NCBI GenBank assembly: GCA_000310025.1
Contig: FN649741.1
Coordinates: 826,526-890,525, forward strand
Origin: Ectocarpus siliculosus
Lineage: Eukaryota > Sar > Phaeophyceae > Ectocarpales > Ectocarpaceae
DNA length: 64,000 nt
Direction of reading: 5' to 3'
The notes beneath the pieces are model-generated. The model was not told the origin of the DNA and did no database searches. It saw nothing but the letters and a program-made list of their open reading frames with translations. This document shows, in pieces, positions 30,808 to 59,198 of the stretch (within the stretch, counting starts at the first letter, position 1; each line of letters opens with the position of its first letter). The position numbers and the translations under genes are program-made.

Positions 30808-35921
<5,114 letters not shown>

Positions 35922-41872: not shown

Positions 41873-44493
41873 TTACAATGCTTGCCCCGACCGTCGCTTC
41901 TGAGATTTGCTCTGGCCTCCCGCATCCCAACTACGCGCTCGCCCTCTCTTCCGCGCCGAGCACCCCCCCCCCCCCTCCCCCTTCTCCGCCTGGACGCTGA
42001 ATTCGGGCGCATCAGCGTTGTACTCGGTACTGTGTCGTTCGCGGGAAGCAGCCAAGCCGTCGGTATCACCACCGCCATCTGTACAGCTACTGCTGCTGCC
42101 CCCCCCGTCGCCAGTGCCGGTGGTCCTCGGGATGAGGGCAACGTGGAACGCGCTAGCCTCGCCGCCCTCGTCAAACACGAGCGATACCGTCAGAAGGGTC
42201 GGCCTGTTGCCGATGCCCGCGTTCGCCAGGAACGGCTGCGCGCCAATCTGCGGGGATGGGACCGGGCTCTCGGAAGGGCTCGAGGCTGCTGCTGCCAACA
42301 GCATACCGCTCATCGCGTCTTGCAGTGCCTGGCGTTGTATCAAAAAATGTGAGGGGAAAACGAGAGGGGGAACACACGGGTGCGTGTAACATTTCTCAAG
42401 TACCACGAGTACATCCACAATAACGCCAGTGCAGCGTAGGTTGCACTTGTCAAATCGACATGACACATGGACGACACAACAACGATCGGACCAAACCAGC
42501 CACCGCAGTAACGGCGGCGCAACTCCCTCCAGCGGTCATGTCACGCAAGCCAACATTCAGGACACGTCAACGGCCAAAGAGCATGTACGGATAGAGATGG
42601 ATTAACGGCAAAAAACTATGATGTACGGATAGAGATGGATTCGCTGCGATTAAGCAAGAAAAAAGACACGAAGAGTGAATGCCGCACCTGAGCACTCTCG
42701 GGGGCTACGAGGGACCGGACGGTGAGCGTGCTGACGGTCTCCTGGTTGATCCGCCCGAAGCCTCGCATGGCGTCGTTCACGTCCACCAGCGCGCCGGCTT
42801 TGTCGGCGATGGCCATCGGCACGTTGCTCAGCCGGAAGATGTCGAAGTAGTTCACGACGCGCATCCTTGCGCCGGCGGTGCCCTCCTCGGACTCGTCGCT
42901 GCCGCCGTCCGCGCTCCCGGCGTCGCCGCCGCTCCCCAGGCTGCCCGTGTAACCGCTGAACGAGCTGTCCGTCGTGAAACCGCGGCTCGTTGTGTCGGTG
43001 GTGAAGTCCTGGCTCCCGGAGTCGGTGGTGCCCGCCGAGGTGGAGCCTCCGCCGCTGTCGCTCGAGCCCGCGTCCCCGTCGGAGCCCGTGCTGCTGCTGC
43101 CACCGACCCCGCCGACCCCGCCGCTACCGCCATCGCCCAGGCTGTTCTCGTCATCATCAGAGGAGGAAGACGAAGCGGAGTACAGCCTCTGCTTCTTGCT
43201 GCGGCGGCCGCCGCCGCCGCCGCTGCTGCTGGTGCTGGTGCTGCCTCGGCTAGCGCTGCTGTTGTTGCTGAATCTGGCGTCGCCGCCGCTGCCGCTGCCG
43301 CTGCAGAAGTCCTCCGCTGTGTCCATGCGATCTGTCTCTTCGGCAGGGCTAGCGCCACCTGTAGCTGGCTTGGTTGACCTTCCTTCTCGTGCTGGCCCGA
43401 CGACCTCCGCGTTGCCCTTAGCCGCCCAGCTCTTGACGTCATTGTCTACGCTGGAACCGCTGGCCCTTGCCGTGTCGCTGTCCGCGGGCGCCTGCTGACG
43501 GTGCCCGCGAGCGGCTTGGCGGAGCTTGGTCTCCATCTCGTAGCACTGTATCTTGTCCCTCAGGCTCCGGAGGTAGCTCTCGCAGCTTACGAGGACGTGA
43601 AGCTTCGAGGAAGACCCGTCGCTGACGTTCGCCTTGTCCAGCGTCGCCTCGAGTTTTCGGGCGTGGATAGTGCAGGGCGGAAAGGGGGGCGAGGGGGAAG
43701 AGTGTCGTGTTACCGCGACGCCGGGGGCCCTTGTTACACAATAAATCGCCGCCTCGCGAAATAAATCGCCTTCTCTTCGCGCACAACGTGAACACAAACA
43801 CCGGTAGCAGTTTATGTATATTTTAAATTTACAATTAATAAGTAAGCACCGGGAGGCGACCTCCGGGAAACTACGGGAAGAAAGTGTCAACCAGACATTA
43901 AAAAAAAGCGGCAACGGCGGTGTCGGGGGGGGGGGGGGGGACCTGCGTCCAGGCAGAACACAGAACCCGATGGCCTCTGACAATAAATCCACCACATCCC
44001 GTTCGACTGCTGTGGGCATATCTCGAACGGGTCTTTCAGTGTGTATATATATTTCCGAATAAATAAATAAACGAATCAATATCACCTTCAACTGGTCGAT
44101 CACGTCGCTGATTTTCTGCGCGCGCTGCTGCTCGCGTCCGTTCTTCGCCGTCCTCGTGGACTTCTGCGCCATCGCCAGCATGCTGCTGGTGTTTCTGTCC
44201 GAGCCGGCTTGGTGTTGGGGCCGCTGCTGTAACACGTGTCCAGCAGCTACCGCCGTCTTTGCGGCTGCTGGGGCCACCACCGCCGCTGCTGCTGCCTGCT
44301 GGTTACCGGGTGCCTCTGCGACTCGACCCTTGCCGTTCTTTTTCGCCTTAGCTGCCCCCAATTGAGCCGTAGCCGCATCTAGTCTCGGCATCTTCTGGAG
44401 CGCCGACGAGATCTCGGCCGCGGTTGCTTCGCAGTCTAAAAAGTTCAGACAGCCGTGTGGTTCGGAGGCCCCTGCTGCTCCCCCGAACTCCAT
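41873..44493 (-). CDS. bHLH-PAS transcription factor
   Basis: Three exons join at phase 0: 44086-44493, 42688-43647 and 41873-42328 (stop TAA), about 607 residues. After an Ala/Gln-rich N-terminus, exon 1 carries the basic region and helix 1 (KNGREQQRAQKISDVIDQLK). Exon 2 continues with loop and helix 2 (ATLDKANVSDGSSSKLHVLV, ESYLRSLRDKIQCYE), then long Ser/Gly/Asp-rich linkers, a KKQR patch and the start of a PAS domain (YFDIFRLSNVPMAIADKAG). Exon 3 ends the PAS fold (PTLLTVSLVFDEGG, AFHVALIPR) and finishes with basic Arg/Lys clusters. bHLH-PAS proteins of stramenopiles include the diatom circadian regulator RITMO1; a clock role here is only inference. The open frame extends upstream of 44493 and through both introns, but splice sites and domain continuity fix the exons. 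Confidence 0.85.
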
Positions 44494-46583
44494 ATCCTTT
44501 TTCTCGTTCTCTTCAGCCTGCTGTGAGTGTGAATCCTCGCACAGCAGTGTACTGCTGTAGTAGTGTTGCAATTTCTGTTGGAACCAACGGGGATAGCAGC
44601 AGGGGAGTATAACAGGCAGAGACAAAGGACGGTCAAAGGACGATCGGAATGAGGAATTTGAGGAGAGACAAAGCTGCTCGACAGCTGTGTTCCTGGTTTT
44701 ACGCAGCAGGAGCGGGACGAGCAGCTGGCTTTTTCTCCCAAGTTCAACAGAAACAGCAGGCACACCTCGGCGCGAGACCTCGTTGTTGCGAATACAGCCA
44801 CAGACGTAGAGCCAGTAGCAGGAAGCAAAGCACGTTCCAGCGGCAGGCATTTCTCTACCCCAATCGAGTTGCACAAGGAGAGAGGTGTGGTCCAAAATGA
44901 CGGCGGGTGGATCACAAACCTTCGAACCGTGCTTGGATTGATAAAAAAAAGTGTCAGACACGGCGGTTAATTTACGGTTACCGTTGCCAAACGCACAATA
45001 GGGAGAGGCGTCTAACGACACACAGGTAGCTGATGGATCTATTTTGCTTTCCGCACGACGGCGAGAGAGCCACAGCAGGCTGTGCGACTTGACTTGCGGA
45101 CAAGCTGATGGTGACAGCAACGACGTGGCCTCCGTCCGCACCCCCGGCGACTGCCGTCGTATTTTGTATTTTCCACTCTTTTTCCGTGTGTCACCAACCA
45201 CGTCGGCCAACGCCGGGAAAAAGCAAAGAGAGGCACAACACAACAGCAGTCTCCAACAAGCTCGTTTACACCTCACTCACCGACACGCTCCCGCCAAGTG
45301 GCGATTCAGCCTGTCGCATCCGATGCACCCCCGTGGTGTCCGGTTGTAACTGCTCTGGTTCGCTATGTGAAGGTGAAGCAGTTGGACGTCAGCTGCCCCG
45401 CAACGACCACCTTCTTCTGTCTTTTGCCACGACTCGCTCTCTCTCTCTCTCTCGTATCTTGCCCAAGCCCGCGCTATCACGCCTGGCTGATGCGAACGTT
45501 AAGCGTAGACGCGGACGGCTACCGCGCGTGCTCTCTCTTGTTCTCGTGCGTGGATCGTGCCTGAGATGGCAGGTCCTTCCGTGCGGGTGGTGGTGACAAT
45601 AGTGGCGGCCCCTTGCGGTGACCGTCTGAGACTGCAAACTACAAGCTGTTTTGGTAACACGTCATTGGGCTGTTCAATGACACCACGAACTGTTTCTTGG
45701 GAAACATATAATGTTAAGCAATAAAAAAAACACACACAGAAAGACTACCCATTCGAGATATACCCACAGTCGAACGTTGCGACGGACCCAAAAAAGAAGG
45801 CGAAGATTGTTGAAGAGAACCTTGTCATCGGGCTGTTCGAAGCCAGGCAGGCTAGTGGTTCGTTTTGGTTCAGTTGGCGTTTTGGTATCCTTCCGAGTCT
45901 GACGTCATGACACGAAGCCGGGCCTTTTTACTCTTACTTCCTTGGCAGCATGTTATTATAGAGAAATCAGAGAGACGAACACTCGCGGAGAGAAAAAGTT
46001 ACTCTCTTTTCGACGAGGGAAGGACAGCTGCCTACATTGTAATCCTGCCCGCTGCTCGTGCTCTTCGTTCTATGCCTATCATACCCCCCAGTCCCACACA
46101 TGAGAGATAGCCGCCACGTGCCTTGTTGAGCCCATTGCTTTCATTTCGGAAAAGTTAGTTAAGTTGTACAAGGAGGAGCAAAAACACAGCATCATCATCA
46201 GTATATATATATGCCAATACGGACCACTACTACTCGATCTATCTATGCATTCATACGGCTGCTTTCCTGGGGGCTCTCCTCGTGTCTAGACAACGGATTG
46301 CAATGATGAATGAGTTCATTTTGCATCAATCCTGGTGCTTGCTGCTGCTGCTGTACGTAGTAGACGACGCAAACAGAGTTTCTGTGTGCGTGCCCGTTTG
46401 ATCCAATCTTGGCGCGCACACACGGGTGGCCAGAGGGCAGGTTGTGGGTGGGTTGTGAGCATCTACAAGGTAGGGGCAGCAGCAGGTTGTTGTAGTAGAG
46501 GGGGGTTGGGAGGAGGCCTCAACCTTGGCCAAACGGCTTGGTTGTGCAAGAAGGACGGATGCGGAAGGTTGGGAGCTATGAGC

Positions 46584-50162: not shown

Positions 50163-50926
50163 NNNNNNNNNNNNNNNNNNNNNNNNNNNNNNNNNNNNNN
50201 NNNNNNNNNNNNNNNNNNNNNNNNNNNNNNNNNNNNNNNNNNNNNNNNNNNNNNNNNNNNNNNNNNNNNNNNNNNNNNNNNNNNNNNNNNNNNNNNNNNN
50301 NNNNNNNNNNNNNNNNNNNNNNNNNNNNNNNNNNNNNNNNNNNNNNNNNNNNNNNNNNNNNNNNNNNNNNNNNNNNNNNNNNNNNNNNNNNNNNNNNNNN
50401 NNNNNNNNNNNNNNNNNNNNNNNNNNNNNNNNNNNNNNNNNNNNNNNNNNNNNNNNNNNNNNNNNNNNNNNNNNNNNNNNNNNNNNNNNNNNNNNNNNNN
50501 NNNNNNNNNNNNNNNNNNNNNNNNNNNNNNNNNNNNNNNNNNNNNNNNNNNNNNNNNNNNNNNNNNNNNNNNNNNNNNNNNNNNNNNNNNNNNNNNNNNN
50601 NNNNNNNNNNNNNNNNNNNNNNNNNNNNNNNNNNNNNNNNNNNNNNNNNNNNNNNNNNNNNNNNNNNNNNNNNNNNNNNNNNNNNNNNNNNNNNNNNNNN
50701 NNNNNNNNNNNNNNNNNNNNNNNNNNNNNNNNNNNNNNNNNNNNNNNNNNNNNNNNNNNNNNNNNNNNNNNNNNNNNNNNNNNNNNNNNNNNNNNNNNNN
50801 NNNNNNNNNNNNNNNNNNNNNNNNNNNNNNNNNNNNNNNNNNNNNNNNNNNNNNNNNNNNNNNNNNNNNNNNNNNNNNNNNNNNNNNNNNNNNNNNNNNN
50901 NNNNNNNNNNNNNNNNNNNNNNNNNN
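50163..50926. other. Assembly gap (764 N)
   Basis: A run of N, followed immediately by a C run (50929-50945). Any ORF spanning this interval is an artefact. Confidence 0.99.
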
Positions 50927-53900
50927 CGCCCCCCCCCCCCCCCCCTTCTATCGTACTATGTAGTAGGCGGATACCGCCATGAGTGGGCTTGGTACCGTCA
51001 TGTTCTCGAACGTTCTAGGGCCAGCCAACCACGGCATTCCCGTGTCAGAGGACGAGGCCATGCAGAGCGTGACCTTCAATCAGGTCCACCGATGCAAGCG
51101 CACCACCCCATAGCTCAGGTACGGTCGGGTTAAGTGAACTCTCCGCAGTAAATGCCACATTTTGTTCAGAAATGGTGCCCAGTGAATTGAAAAACAAAGT
51201 ATGATGGAAAGGTCCGACCCGCGACACCTCTGTCCACCGAGAACCGACGAAGGTCTGCTACGGCACCTGCTGCCAGAGTCGTGCATAACATCGTCGATCA
51301 CTCCGGCATAGCTCCACGCAATTTTTGAGTAAATCGCTCCTATTTGAATTTGAACGGAAGGAACGATGGAATACCTTCTTTCGAGAGCTGTTCATTCGTC
51401 CATTTATGAGACTCAACCAAAGCGTACGCATACAATAGAGGGAAGGAACGGGGGGGGGTGCAGGCAACTATTCCTCGCGATGCATTGCTTGTGGAAGGAG
51501 TAGAGAGTTTTGACGCACGCGCACCGGTACTGCTGTTGTCTTGAGGGTCTCACATCTTGTAGCGTTGTCCTATATATAGTGCAAGACAGAAGGGCGTCGC
51601 AAGGTGAACCGATAGTGTGCAACTAGCCAACATCTCATGATGCCAAGCAAAGCGCCGGGGACGAAGAGTTATTGCCTTGAAATGTTAACGCCGCTTCCCT
51701 GTGGTTATGACGCTTGAACTTTTCAATCCCCATGCACGTTTTTACAGCGAGGATAGCTGCTGCTGATGTCCTGTTCGAATTGCTTGCTGTTTCCGGCGCA
51801 AATTCCAGGCCATCTACTGTCACCCTTGCCCGCTCAGCACCACTCCCCCCCCCCTCAGGTATGGATTGCCATCGTTCGAAGGTGCTCGAGCAGTACGTCC
51901 TCACGGATATCAAGACGAAGATGGGCAGTACAGGCTACACTTCGGTAACAAGAGCGACCCCTACCACGACGGTATTGCCGTACCTTGCCTGTGTGCGAGG
52001 CTTTTTCCGAAAAGGTGTTTGCTGCGAAGGGCGGCGGCCGTGAAAAAACTTGGACGTCATCAGCGACTCGTACGTTGCCTTTGTTGATATGTGAACTAAG
52101 CTCTATGAGGCTGAGGGTTTTTGTTGTCTTTAGCGTATTCTTCTAACCCTGTCTCCCCTGGTGTTCTGTCGGCAATTTGTCAGGCCGATAAGCGCCCTTT
52201 GGACGTGCAAGCTCTGCCGAACGTCCAACACTCTCGTTTATTTTGTTCCTGACGCGTTTGTTTGTTTCTAGCCTTTAAAATCATTTTCCCACGTTTTCAG
52301 CGTCCCCTGAAGTTGCTCCGAGGCAGTCGACGCGCTGGTGGTTTGTCGCAACCTATCTATGTATGAACCCGTGACGTCAAACAAACTGACATTCACATGG
52401 AACGCTATTTGTTCTTTGTTTCGTGTCTCAGGTCCTAGGAGAGCTTCATGCGGTTCGGCTTGGAATACGTTTAGCCGATCCTCTCCACCGAGAGTATTGA
52501 TCGCCAGGACGATGCTAAGCGCTCCCTCAAGCCGTGCTTGTTCGCGGACGAGGGGGCAGGAGGTGGAGGAGGTGACCCAGGGGCGGATGGGGGTGGAGGG
52601 TAAACTAAAGATGGAGACGGGGATGTTCTTCGTCTCCGAGCGAGAAAAGCGATGGTCTTGATGACTACGCTGGCTACAAAGCCTTGGCGGACACCTAAAT
52701 AAACCGTGTTGACAAGGTACGTCATGTGTCTTGTCCTTTCCAAAAATCGTGTCTCTCTTTCTGTCTCTTTCTCTCTGCCTGCGATGATGTTGGATGCTTG
52801 CGTGTTTCTTGTCGTGCATCCGTTATGCCCGCGGCTCCCTATAATGTACACCCTTCCTCATCCCAGCGTGTCTGTTGGCGACTCCTGATGTTTGAATGTA
52901 CCTCGCCTCCCTTCAAAGTAGTTCTGCGGGGGTGCGTAGCTTATCCTGGTCTCTGACGTATTCTACGACCTGCGGTTATGCTGTCGGTTTGTGTCCTCCT
53001 CCCCCCCCATGCCTGCTTGCAAATATTATTGTTGACAATCAATGTACATCTGTCAGCTATACCAAGAACTATATAATATATATACTGCAGCAAAGGGGGA
53101 GAGCATGCCCTCCATTTAATTTCTCGACGGCCCACTATCACCCTCCTCTCACACTTCAATATTATTTCGCTGCTGATCGGTAACCTCCAGGTCGAGTCGC
53201 CGGGGCCTCCGCTGCAACATCGTTCAAAGCGTTTTGTCGGTTCCTCATGACGTTCACAACGGGTGGAAGCTTTGATGGAGGAGGCGGAGTTTGTCCCGCT
53301 CGCCATGTCTCACAGTTTTTTTTAATCGTATGGTGCTATGATACGCTTGTTGCTCTCGCTGGTGCATGAGGGCGCCTGGCGCGGGATGAGAGCCAGGTGT
53401 TTTCTTACTGTGTCTGTAAGGGCGTTTGGAATCTGTCGCTGCAGCCTCTTGGCTTCGTCTGCGCTGTTTTTTGTCCGTGTGAAATATGGCTTTTTTGGCG
53501 AAGGGGAGGGGGAGGGGGGAGTTGTTTCGATGGTGTTGGGAAGTAGAGAGTACACCTTGCGCAGCCATCGACAGCTTGACCCAATCCGGCTTGTTAGCAG
53601 CGCACCAACCACCGAGAAAGGGTACACCTTGTACTACCATCGGCAACCTGCCCCCTATGCGGCTTGTAATAGCGCACCAACCACCAAGAAAGGGTACACC
53701 TGCACTACCATCGGCAACCTGCCCCCTATCCGGCTTGTAAACAACACGCAACCTCCAAGAAAGGTATACCTTTTGCACAACCTGGCCATTGTTGCATTGC
53801 AAGGATTACCCAAGGTGGGGAGGTTGCATCTCGTGCCAAAGTACTTGAGGTTGGCAAAAGTGCCCCTACAACCTGGTGTGTTGGCCACCCGTTCCGTGCA

Positions 53901-55372: not shown

Positions 55373-58300
55373 CTAAAGGGCTGCACTTGCGACGACCGAG
55401 TGCCGGCACATGTGCTTGAAGCTGCAGAAAGTGCACGCCTGGAAAGACGGGGTGGCCTCGAACCGCTCCGCGCGAACCGCCGTCGCCGTGGCGGAAATCG
55501 CCTCCAAGGCAACCTTCGCGTCGGCCGCAAGCGGCACCGCTACCCCCCTACGCCCGTCCTCTATCGACTCTATCGCTATCTCGGTCGGTGGAGTTCCGAA
55601 CAGCCGCTCGGCCGCGAGCGCGTAGATCCGGAGCTGAAGATTGTCCCGGACCATGCGGCTTGGGACTTTCGCGCCGACGTTCGATTTGTAGTCCGTTATG
55701 GAGAGCAACCCAGGGTGTGAAGAGCCCTCGCCGACAGCCGCCTCGATGTCCACCCTGTCGAAAATTCCTGAGAGCACGACGCTCGCCTCCGGAATCTTCA
55801 CCATAAACTTGCGTTCCACGAGGAGCTGACGCGGTTGCGAGTTGTGACCAGAGCCCGCACCGGTGGTGCAGCCTCTGTCCTCGATTAGCCTAGACATGAA
55901 CGACTCCAAGCCGGCCACGCCAGCCGCTCTTAGTGTGCGCAGCTGGTCCACCGACTCGAACGCGCACCCCCGCAGGTGTTGGTTGAAGTCTTCCACCACG
56001 GCTTCCAGGGTCGGGGGCGGGCCAGCCCCCCGGCTCCCGCTCGCCACGCCACGCAGCAACGCGGCAACCCCCTCGTGCATGGCTTGGCCGTACACCATTC
56101 GCGGGTTCGGCGGAGGGGACACGTTGAGCACGTGCTGGAGGAAGTAGCTGTACGGGCACGCCGCAAACGACGAAATGGAAGAGAACGACAGCCGGAGCGC
56201 CGCGGCCGCCGGCGACGGCGACGCGGACTCGAGCCTCCCGGCAACGGTGGCATACCCCCCCTCAACGACCTTCGGCGCTGCGTCTCTACTGCCCCCGGGC
56301 GCAGCAGCACCCTCGTCCTCCACAAGGTGTAAGCGGTCCTCTTGATCCTTCGGTGTCTCGATCGCCGTTATCCACTCTCGCGGGGCGTCATCCCCCAGGA
56401 TCTCGGCAAGAAACGGGCTAGGGCTTAGGTGCGTCTTACCGCGGATGGCCCGGGCTGAAACACTGAGGCAAACCTCCTGCCCGGCGGAGCCCAGAGCGGC
56501 ATACAGCATCGCTCTGCCCCGGTTCTCATGGTAGGCGCGTGCAAGATCAGCCTCTGCTCGTAGGCTCCCAGTGTCCCGCGGCTCCGGATAGCCGCGGAAC
56601 GGTCCCGGCACCGTCAAGCGCGGCGTTCGAAGGTTACCGGGGAGGCGCGCTCTGCTGCAGAACGGGATGAAAACGGTGTGATAGGAGCGGTTCTCGCCGG
56701 CGTTCCAGTCCTCGCCAAGTCGAAAGACGCGGACAACGCCGCTGGAACCAGCAGAGGAGCCCCCGAATTCCCCGCCTGTCGCTGCCTCGTCGTCGCGGGG
56801 CCCGGAGGGTTTCATGTACCCGGTGCCATGGCGCCGGAACAAGCGGAGGATCGGTTCGACGAGGGCGACATTGTCACCCCCAGCCTGTTGTTACACGTAC
56901 CAAAGGGCGGCGGTAATCGAGCAGCTTTTACCGGTTTCGGTGGGGTTGGCAGCAAGGAATACGTGGAACTATTCGCTTGGCACGTCTGCTGAGGAATTGT
57001 GGTACACACCCCAGCCGCCCACGTGCTGTGCGCGTAGTCAACGCACTATTCTGAAAACGACATAAAAAAGACAGGTTTCATCCGCGTGCATCATTCAAAG
57101 GTGTGTTCGGTGTGTGTGAAAATACTTGAACGGTACTGCTGTTAGCGTTTCGCCTGGTGGTACCACGCCTACACTTGACGACAAGAAATACGAAACAAAC
57201 AAAACAAAATGCCAGAAAGGGACGCACCGAGAGCCCGCTTGACCCAACCACAACTAACTTCACCTGTTGCTCTGCCCTCGCTGTGAGCTCGAAGAATTCC
57301 GCCACTGCTCGCCCCTCCTCCTCTTCTTCCTTCGTGGTGGGCTCCTCGAGCCGCTCCAGTCGCCCCGAATACCTCAAAAAGTCGAGCATGATTTCCCTCA
57401 CCCCTGTCCTTTTCGCCGTTTCCGCAAATCGATCTACGTCGGACAGGAGCTTCCCAGCGACGTTCCTCGCGCTGGTCGAAACCCCGTGCCCCCCCCCTCG
57501 TGGGTGCGAGTCCCCTCCCTCGCCCGAGTGAATATCTCGAAGAAACGACCGCAAGGGTACGTACCGCGATAGGTGCCCTTCCAAGGCTGCCGTCAGCTCG
57601 CCGCCGGGCAAAGCGTACGCGGGGCAAGACATTAGCAGGTGTAGCAGCGGGGTCGATTCTGAGGGGTGCACCAGGCACCGGAGAAAAGACATGAGCATCC
57701 GCGGCGTTTCGTTGTCGAACACCGCCGAGAAGCGTGGGGGGGACTCAACCGGCACCCCTGCTGCACTGAGCGCCGCAACCAAGGTGTCCGCAACGCCCCC
57801 CCCTCCGACGGCTGCCACCCCAATATCACCCGGGTGCACCCCGGCTTTGATCACCTCTCGGACTCTCCTCCCCAAAGCTTTCACCTCGTCTCCCTCCGTT
57901 TGAAATGTGAGGCAGGTCAGCCGGCTGTCTCTGCTTGCTGCTCCTGGTGTCGTTGCAAGCGCGGGCTTCTCGTCCGTTGCTGCTGCTGCTGCTGCCGATG
58001 TGTTTCTTTCAACACCGGCAGTGTCTTCAAGAAAATCAGCAACGCCCGGTGCGTCCGCCTTCGCCGCCTTTGCTGAGTTCTTCCTCTTTGCCGCCGCCGG
58101 AGCATCGCGAGGCTCTAGCGTCTTCATGGCCATCTGGATGGCAGAACTACTATGGTGGTTGCCCTCTAGGTGGAGTTCCTGAGCGCCCGGAAAGGCCTTC
58201 TTGAACCGAGCGATGGCTGTGTGCTCGGCGCGAAAGATTCCAACGCGAGACATGGCCGCTAAATGCGGGTCCGCCGTCGCCGTAATCCTGGCCCCCGGAG

Positions 58301-59198
58301 CTACAAGACTCGCCAGGATATCGATCATCGCGGGCGAGTACCACTGTATGTCGTCTACGTAGACGTGCGACAAGCGCAGCGATAGTGCGGCCTTGGCGGT
58401 GGCGCTTTCTCTGAGGATCCGCCGCGCCAACAGCAACTGGTCGGAGAAGTCCTCGACCCCTTCCCGCCTCTTGAGGTCCACGAAGGCCTCGTAGACGTTG
58501 GCCTTGTCTCGCTCCCCGGCGACGTGCGCGCGCCAGCCTTCGGCTTCAAGCTGCGCCCGCTGCCTCGCCCGCCTAGCCTGTGCACCGCTCCCGGCGTCAT
58601 CGTCGACCGTAACGCCTCCTTGCTGTTCGCCACCACCGGCGGTTGTGCCCAGCTCCGTTTCCAGGGCCTCCACATATCGGAGATAGTCTTCGGGCGAGAC
58701 CCCGCAGTGCGCGAGGCTGGAGAAGAGGCCGAGCAGCGGCCGGACGGCGCCCCCCGGGTCGTGCAGCGGGCGGTACTTGCCAAGAGGGAGGGCGCCGAGG
58801 TTGCGGTGCAGGAAGACGGAGAGGCTGTTGCGGTTGAGCACGGCGGCGTCGGCGGCGGTGTCGAAGCTCCCGACCGTGGGGCCGAACTCATCGACGATCC
58901 TCCGGACCAGAGACGGGAAGGTCTCAACGTCGCATTTTGTGCACCCCAGCGGCCGTTCGAGGTCGATCCTCTGTTGGAGGCGGGCATAGTTAGCTTGCTG
59001 GCTCACTGCGAGAAGGGAGCCGGCGGGGCCTGCTGCTGCTGCGCTGACGTGTTCTTGCTGCTGCTGCGGCGGCGACGATGATGCTGTTTCGCTTGCCGCT
59101 TGCAACAGCTGATTGGTCAAGGACCATGTCTTACCGGAGCCTAGCAGTCCGGTGATGAGAGTTGCCTGGCCCGCCGATCGCGGTGCTGCCGAGATCAT
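55373..59198 (-). CDS. UvrD-like helicase fused to RecB-family (PD-(D/E)XK, Fe-S) nuclease
   Basis: Two exons, phase 0: 57264-59198 and 55373-56884 (1148 residues). N-terminal SF1 helicase features: ITGLLGSGKTWSL (Walker A), VETFPSLVRRIVDEFGP (motif Ia region), LSHVYVDDIQWYSPAMIDIL (motif II; usually DEFQ). Motif III reads ITATADPHLAAM where GD-x-x-Q is usual, motif IV reads LEGNHHSSSAI (usually NYRS), and motif VI reads RAMLYAALGSA (usually RRLLYVALTRA). The C-terminal nuclease has the first Fe-S cysteine in FAACPYSYFLQHVL, then VYGQAMHEGV, GIFDRVDIE and LSITDYKSN (catalytic H, D, D-x-K), and the C-terminal cluster CTFCSFKHMC. This layout is that of bacterial AdnA/AdnB and AddB proteins. The nuclease looks active and the motor partly eroded, as in AdnA. 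It probably acts in DNA break processing, possibly in an organelle, though no targeting peptide is obvious. Divergent from the gene at 59431. Confidence 0.85.

Follow-up and report, generated by a model that had tools for sequence, protein, structure and literature searches.

A nuclear gene of Ectocarpus siliculosus probably encodes a descendant of the single-chain bacterial UvrD-Cas4-like helicase-nucleases, in which the motor is dead and the nuclease sits on the dead-motor scaffold. The gene lies in a 64,000-nucleotide stretch of contig FN649741.1 (the window; all coordinates below are window coordinates, and all features of the gene are on the minus strand). Its 1148-aa product is 27-31% identical, end to end and in both exons, to 15 bacterial single-chain members. 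All 15 of these carry every motor motif; in the Ectocarpus protein, Walker A is the only motor motif left intact.

The protein is encoded in two exons, 59198-57264 and 56884-55373, with the ATG at 59198 and the stop codon ending at 55373. Exon 1 (57264-59198) covers residues 1-645, a UvrD-like 1A/1B/2A/2B pseudo-motor. Exon 2 (55373-56884) covers residues 646-1148 and the stop codon and contains the end of the pseudo-motor (motifs V and VI) and the nuclease. The intervening GT...AG intron (56885-57263) is 379 bases long and of phase 0, as placed by the frame and the homology on either side, with GTGAAG as donor border and ACAACAG as acceptor. Because an in-frame TAA lies directly upstream of exon 2, ACAACAG is the sole AG that keeps the frame with the given donor. 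Homology backs the splice seam: the window reads AEFFELTARAEQQ before and AGGDNVALVEPILRLFRRHG after it, where the bacterial proteins read AKFFRLVTSAG...FVPYLELLREAGDD, and the protein flanking the seam on both sides aligns to one continuous stretch of the bacterial relatives. Open reading frames, splice sites and seam homology thus bear out an earlier note on this DNA, made from the letters alone, which had proposed a two-exon gene at this position. The predicted N-terminus is short. Walker A starts at residue 17, there is no Q motif ahead of it, although every relative has one, and an in-frame TGA stands two codons upstream of the ATG. A search for an upstream exon carrying the Q motif gave no convincing candidate; the gene model could possibly be incomplete at its N-terminus, with an upstream exon still unseen. 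As predicted, this N-terminus leaves no room for a targeting peptide. The contig measures 8.06 Mb in an assembly of 189 Mb, and its size, together with the intron, supports the nuclear location that the earlier note had assumed.

Elsewhere in the window, an 880-aa open frame on the minus strand (32606-35248) combines a glutamine amidotransferase with the first part of a chorismate-binding domain, a fused aminodeoxychorismate synthase of the PabA-PabB type. An 886-aa open frame, also on the minus strand (42616-45276), has no Pfam match, and a tandem array of 2.7 copies of a 71-base unit occupies 53580-53771. Low G+C and open frames in all six frames at ~50163-50926 result from a run of N there.

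The earlier note had read the protein as a bacterial-style fusion of a UvrD-type motor and a RecB/Cas4 nuclease, and both parts were recovered by a Pfam search: PDDEXK_1 (PF12705) matches across the whole profile (E 3e-25), and UvrD-helicase matches in part (E 3.8e-6). The fusion itself is borne out by these matches and by the end-to-end homology. The PDDEXK_1/Cas4-like nuclease domain spans residues 876-1139 (55403-56194). The His, Asp, D-x-K and four Cys residues that had been noticed before are all found in the alignments. Cys888 (56156-56158) is the predicted first Fe-S ligand, and Cys1129, Cys1132 and Cys1138 (55406-55435) are the predicted remaining ligands; His915 (56075-56077) and Asp1021 (55757-55759) are predicted active-site residues, and Asp1043-Tyr-Lys1045 (55685-55693) forms the D-x-K motif. 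The alignments also place a QxxxY motif at Gln1062...Tyr1066 (55622-55636). These ten residues, from Cys888 to Cys1138, make up the set expected of the Fe-S Cas4/AddB/AdnA class, and a nuclease that carries them would bind metal and an Fe-S cluster. In an AlphaFold model of exon 2, pLDDT is mostly >85 from residue 875 (about residue 230 of the exon) onward. The best solved matches to this model are the AdnA nuclease chain, then the Cas4-family protein ACE1, Cas4 and Dna2.

The motor presents a different picture. Walker A, GLLGSGKT, is kept at residues 17-24 (59127-59150). In motif II (residues 282-285; 58344-58355), the bacterial DEFQ has become DDIQ, a change of the catalytic Glu to Asp that leaves the Walker B Asp in place. 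Motif III (residues 309-320; 58239-58274) reads ADPHLAAMSRVG for the bacterial GDDDQSIYxFRG and has lost its Gln and Arg. Motif IV (residues 347-350; 58149-58160) reads NHHS for NxRS, with His in place of Arg; in the motif V region (residues 696-718; 56666-56734), H.AKGLE (HKAKGLEF) has given way to N.GENRS; and motif VI (residues 767-786; 56462-56521; RGRAMLYAALGSAGQEVCLS) has YAALGSAG for YVAMTRAR, so that TRAR is replaced by GSAG. The motif III Gln and the motif IV and VI Arg are the nucleotide-sensing and arginine-finger positions of UvrD-type motors, in which Ia, Ic and V contact ssDNA. Relative to the 15 bacterial members, the TFT of Ia is changed and the TFH of Ic has become TFP. The earlier note had recorded a kept Walker A and the loss of Gln and Arg from motifs III, IV and VI, and both observations hold in the alignment; the damage exceeds that account, extending to the Q motif, Ia, Ic, II and V. 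The end-to-end alignment contains no replacement copies of the lost motifs at other positions.

This loss is selective. Over the alignment columns that are invariant across the 15 bacterial members, with all motor motifs but motif I counted, the Ectocarpus protein keeps 18 of 62 residues in the motifs (29%), 49 of 74 in the remaining motor (66%) and 30 of 41 in the nuclease (73%); the motifs differ from the rest of the motor and from the nuclease with a Fisher p of 1.7e-5 each. A second alignment gave 27%, 62% and 73%, respectively. With this second alignment, none of 15 control proteins (AdnA, AdnB, AddA-like, archaeal, acidobacterial and plasmid proteins) keeps the motifs less well than the scaffold. 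Distant relatives therefore shed scaffold before motifs, and the Ectocarpus protein reverses this order. As judged from these alignments, motif-first loss is not what simple divergence, misalignment or pseudogene decay would predict. The pattern suggests relaxed selection on catalysis and continued selection on the fold and the nuclease. Because the motors of the bacterial relatives are intact, the motor would have died after parting from the bacteria.

The relatives, found in Chloroflexota, Methylomirabilota and Acidobacteriota, are single chains of ~970-1200 aa in which a Cas4-like nuclease comes after a complete PcrA/UvrD motor. A family profile gives one domain match to the Ectocarpus protein that covers profile positions 63-967 of 968 (392 bits), and two independent four-sequence family profiles score 379 and 291 bits. 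Whole-genome searches found matches in 77 of 95 Methylomirabilota/Rokubacteria genomes at E 0.001, and, at E 1e-15, in 38 of 301 Chloroflexota genomes (best E 1e-39) and 4 of 247 Acidobacteriota genomes; samples of the Deltaproteobacteria type and of Pseudomonadota had no match at E 1e-15. Matches in Actinomycetota fall almost all in the nuclease region only, in short open frames, and a viral collection contained only two relatives, both weak. Very distant nucleases varied too much for their alignment to serve in scanning; a degenerate DNA pattern for the V-T-D-Y-K-T-G stretch of the nuclease led to the genomes that hold the true relatives. Exon 2 by itself matched nothing when scanned against prokaryote genomes, and no prokaryote genome with a close copy was found.

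Several further observations concern the prokaryotic proteins themselves. Matches on plasmids (Robbsia, Rhizobium, Deinococcus, Haloferax and Hymenobacter) had hinted at AddB or other UvrD proteins, and were set aside as they score far below the single-chain family. The Robbsia and Rhizobium plasmid proteins (L008 3239-6661 and L009 2864-6283) combine a HELGH zinc-protease-like N-terminus with UvrD and a decayed-looking nuclease region, and their genes adjoin multiubiquitin, ThiF or Mov34/MPN genes. A Hymenobacter single-chain UvrD-PDDEXK protein (L012 1589-4786) adjoins the BREX genes brxL and pglZ. In one Chloroflexota genome (L200 3906-7001), a second UvrD-like frame, of 1032 aa, comes immediately after the single-chain gene.

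Signatures outside the motor motifs agree with the profile scores. The Ectocarpus protein shares YRPLxDP...LFS...SPxxY, FLRxLxxPxxS and VAxFF with the single-chain family, and neither AdnA nor AdnB has them; the first reads YRPLHDP...LLGLFS...SPEDY at residues 142-172 (58683-58775). In a full-length tree that included AdnA and AdnB from actinobacterial genomes, the Ectocarpus protein, a long branch, joins the single-chain family with support of 100/100 and adjoins a Chloroflexota clade (99/99 and 94/84). AU tests gave p 0.23 for nested versus sister placement relative to the family and p 0.068 for union with AdnA. In a nuclease-only tree, it groups with the single-chain family at 92/86, and union with AddB has p 0.49. 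The trees are firm on the union with the single-chain family; union with AdnA is disfavoured rather than rejected, and the nuclease taken alone does not separate the protein from AddB. UvrD-Cas4-like fusions of pfam12705 have been described in bacteria and archaea, often near restriction-modification genes (Hudaiberdiev et al. 2017, PMC5704561). The Ectocarpus protein shares with them the order of motor then nuclease in one chain, homology from end to end, the four Cys and the H, D, DxK and QxxxY residues of the Cas4-like nuclease, but departs from all bacterial members sampled in its motor motifs, which in those members form an intact SF1A set. With 18 of 62 motif residues kept, it is therefore a homologue by descent, and a derived one, rather than an active helicase member. 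On sequence grounds, the AdnA/AddB label proposed in the earlier note gives way to the single-chain UvrD-Cas4 family, with the protein as its derived homologue.

That label does not survive the profile searches: our AdnA (built from four AdnA sequences), AdnB and AddB profiles give no match to a protein that scores 291-392 bits with the single-chain family, and NCBIfam AddB/RexB models reach 11-14 bits against cut-offs of 486-904. The likeness to the AdnA of mycobacterial AdnAB lies in the UvrD-RecB order, a weak motor with DD in motif II, and an AdnA-type Fe-S nuclease (with a predicted cluster) at the C-terminus, by both residues and modelled fold. ATPase activity was not detected in AdnA (PMC13309787). 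In actinobacterial AdnA copies (L240-L244), motif II is VDDAQ or VDDAH and Ia and V are degenerate, which fits this missing ATPase. AdnA differs in forming a separate clade, in having AdnB adjoining, and in keeping the Gln and Arg of motifs III, IV and VI in most copies. The split of duties that the earlier note had seen as shared with AdnA is for this reason not the same erosion. AddB of AddAB, like the Ectocarpus protein, has an Fe-S nuclease and an inactivated helicase domain that retains Walker A and its ATP site (PMC4824097), yet no AddB profile matches over the Ectocarpus motor and no AddA partner gene was found. The AddB resemblance is one of working, by analogy, and not of descent. Eukaryotic Dna2 also unites an Fe-S Cas4-like nuclease, close in fold, with an SF1 helicase in one protein; in Dna2, the nuclease precedes the helicase, which is an active one of the SF1B type. 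A search of the literature on algal or plant relatives of AddB or AdnA yielded nothing relevant.

The earlier note had also supposed a need for a partner motor. No second UvrD-nuclease gene, and hence no AdnB partner, turned up in the Ectocarpus genome, where PF12705 and a bacterial family query match only this gene (assembly gaps are possible), and no AddA-like gene was seen. Each bacterial relative has its own intact motor within the chain, so ancestry does not imply a heterodimer. The only other UvrD-type gene found in the genome lies on another contig (C5:853900-864000, loci L006 and L007); it has many exons, no nuclease match, and intact motifs I, II, III, V and VI (AGAGTGKT, VDEYQD, GDEDQHIYGWRG, HQAKGREF and YVALTRA). 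This gene plausibly encodes a helicase of the UvrD/SRS2 type, which could supply the unwinding.

What was a working helicase-nuclease in bacteria seems to have become a nuclease mounted on the scaffold of a dead motor. Homology, the intron and the contig establish bacterial ancestry and a eukaryotic nuclear location. The direction of transfer and the donor are a matter of inference: the ancestor would be a single-chain bacterial UvrD-Cas4-like helicase-nuclease, nearest to those of Chloroflexota among the single-chain members sampled from Chloroflexota, Methylomirabilota and Acidobacteriota. After parting from the bacterial family, the protein would have lost the motifs for ATPase and DNA translocation while, as the conservation contrast suggests, selection maintained the fold of the motor, Walker A and the Fe-S nuclease. 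Its most likely activity is metal-dependent cleavage of ssDNA or DNA ends; another helicase would open the ssDNA or ends that it may trim. The dead motor may serve as a scaffold that holds DNA or partners, perhaps as an ATP-binding switch, with ATP bound but not turned over. In AddB and RecC, inactivated SF1 domains can act as regulators, and the AddB ATP site affects the stability of the Chi complex (PMC4824097). The Ectocarpus motor may be comparable in kind to these helicase domains, reached independently, and as an account of working the comparison appears a fair analogy. Strand scanning of the RecC/AddB type is not specifically supported, because the ssDNA contacts Ia, Ic and V are also altered. 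A more specific version, to be entertained tentatively, is that a eukaryote captured the bacterial single-chain enzyme and made of its motor a pseudo-helicase that binds ATP without hydrolysing it and controls a Cas4-type nuclease; this would be a separate origin, in a eukaryotic nucleus, of a dead-motor regulator of the RecC/AddB kind.

Other explanations fare less well. An AdnA- or AddB-type subunit that needs a partner AdnB or AddA motor for break resection would account for the closest solved fold, for the Glu-to-Asp change in motif II that AdnA shares and for the retention of Walker A alone, as in AddB, and union with AdnA stands at p 0.068; we consider it unlikely, given the silent AdnA, AdnB and AddB profiles, the single-chain signatures outside the motifs, the motif III, IV and VI residues kept in most AdnA copies and the lack of a second UvrD-nuclease gene in the genome. 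It is quite unlikely that unconventional residues let the altered motor go on hydrolysing ATP and moving along DNA: although Walker A and the Walker B Asp remain on a conserved scaffold, the catalytic Glu, the motif III Gln, the Arg of IV and VI and the DNA-contact motifs Ia, Ic and V are all changed, and the end-to-end alignment offers no alternative copies.

We consider pseudogene decay or an erroneous gene model very unlikely. The gene is known from a single genome, without a transcript, and lacks the Q motif at an N-terminus with a TGA two codons ahead of the ATG; against this stand 1148 open codons across two exons and a loss restricted to ATPase motifs, with nuclease and scaffold invariants kept, which neutral decay would not give. 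Bacterial contamination or a chimeric contig, which the protein's bacterial type might suggest and which the earlier note had rightly doubted, can in practice be dismissed, since the contig measures 8.06 Mb and the assembly 189 Mb; the gene also contains a spliceosomal-type intron, and no close prokaryotic copy was found.

In prokaryotes, UvrD-Cas4 fusions are known as enzymes of repair or defence. Their counterpart in a eukaryotic nucleus, which has lost its ATPase motifs alone, suggests, like RecC and AddB, that the fold of such a motor may be worth keeping after its activity is gone, and offers a testable case of a helicase becoming a scaffold. It would also give a eukaryotic genome a candidate Fe-S DNA nuclease where the annotation would otherwise read 'hypothetical'.
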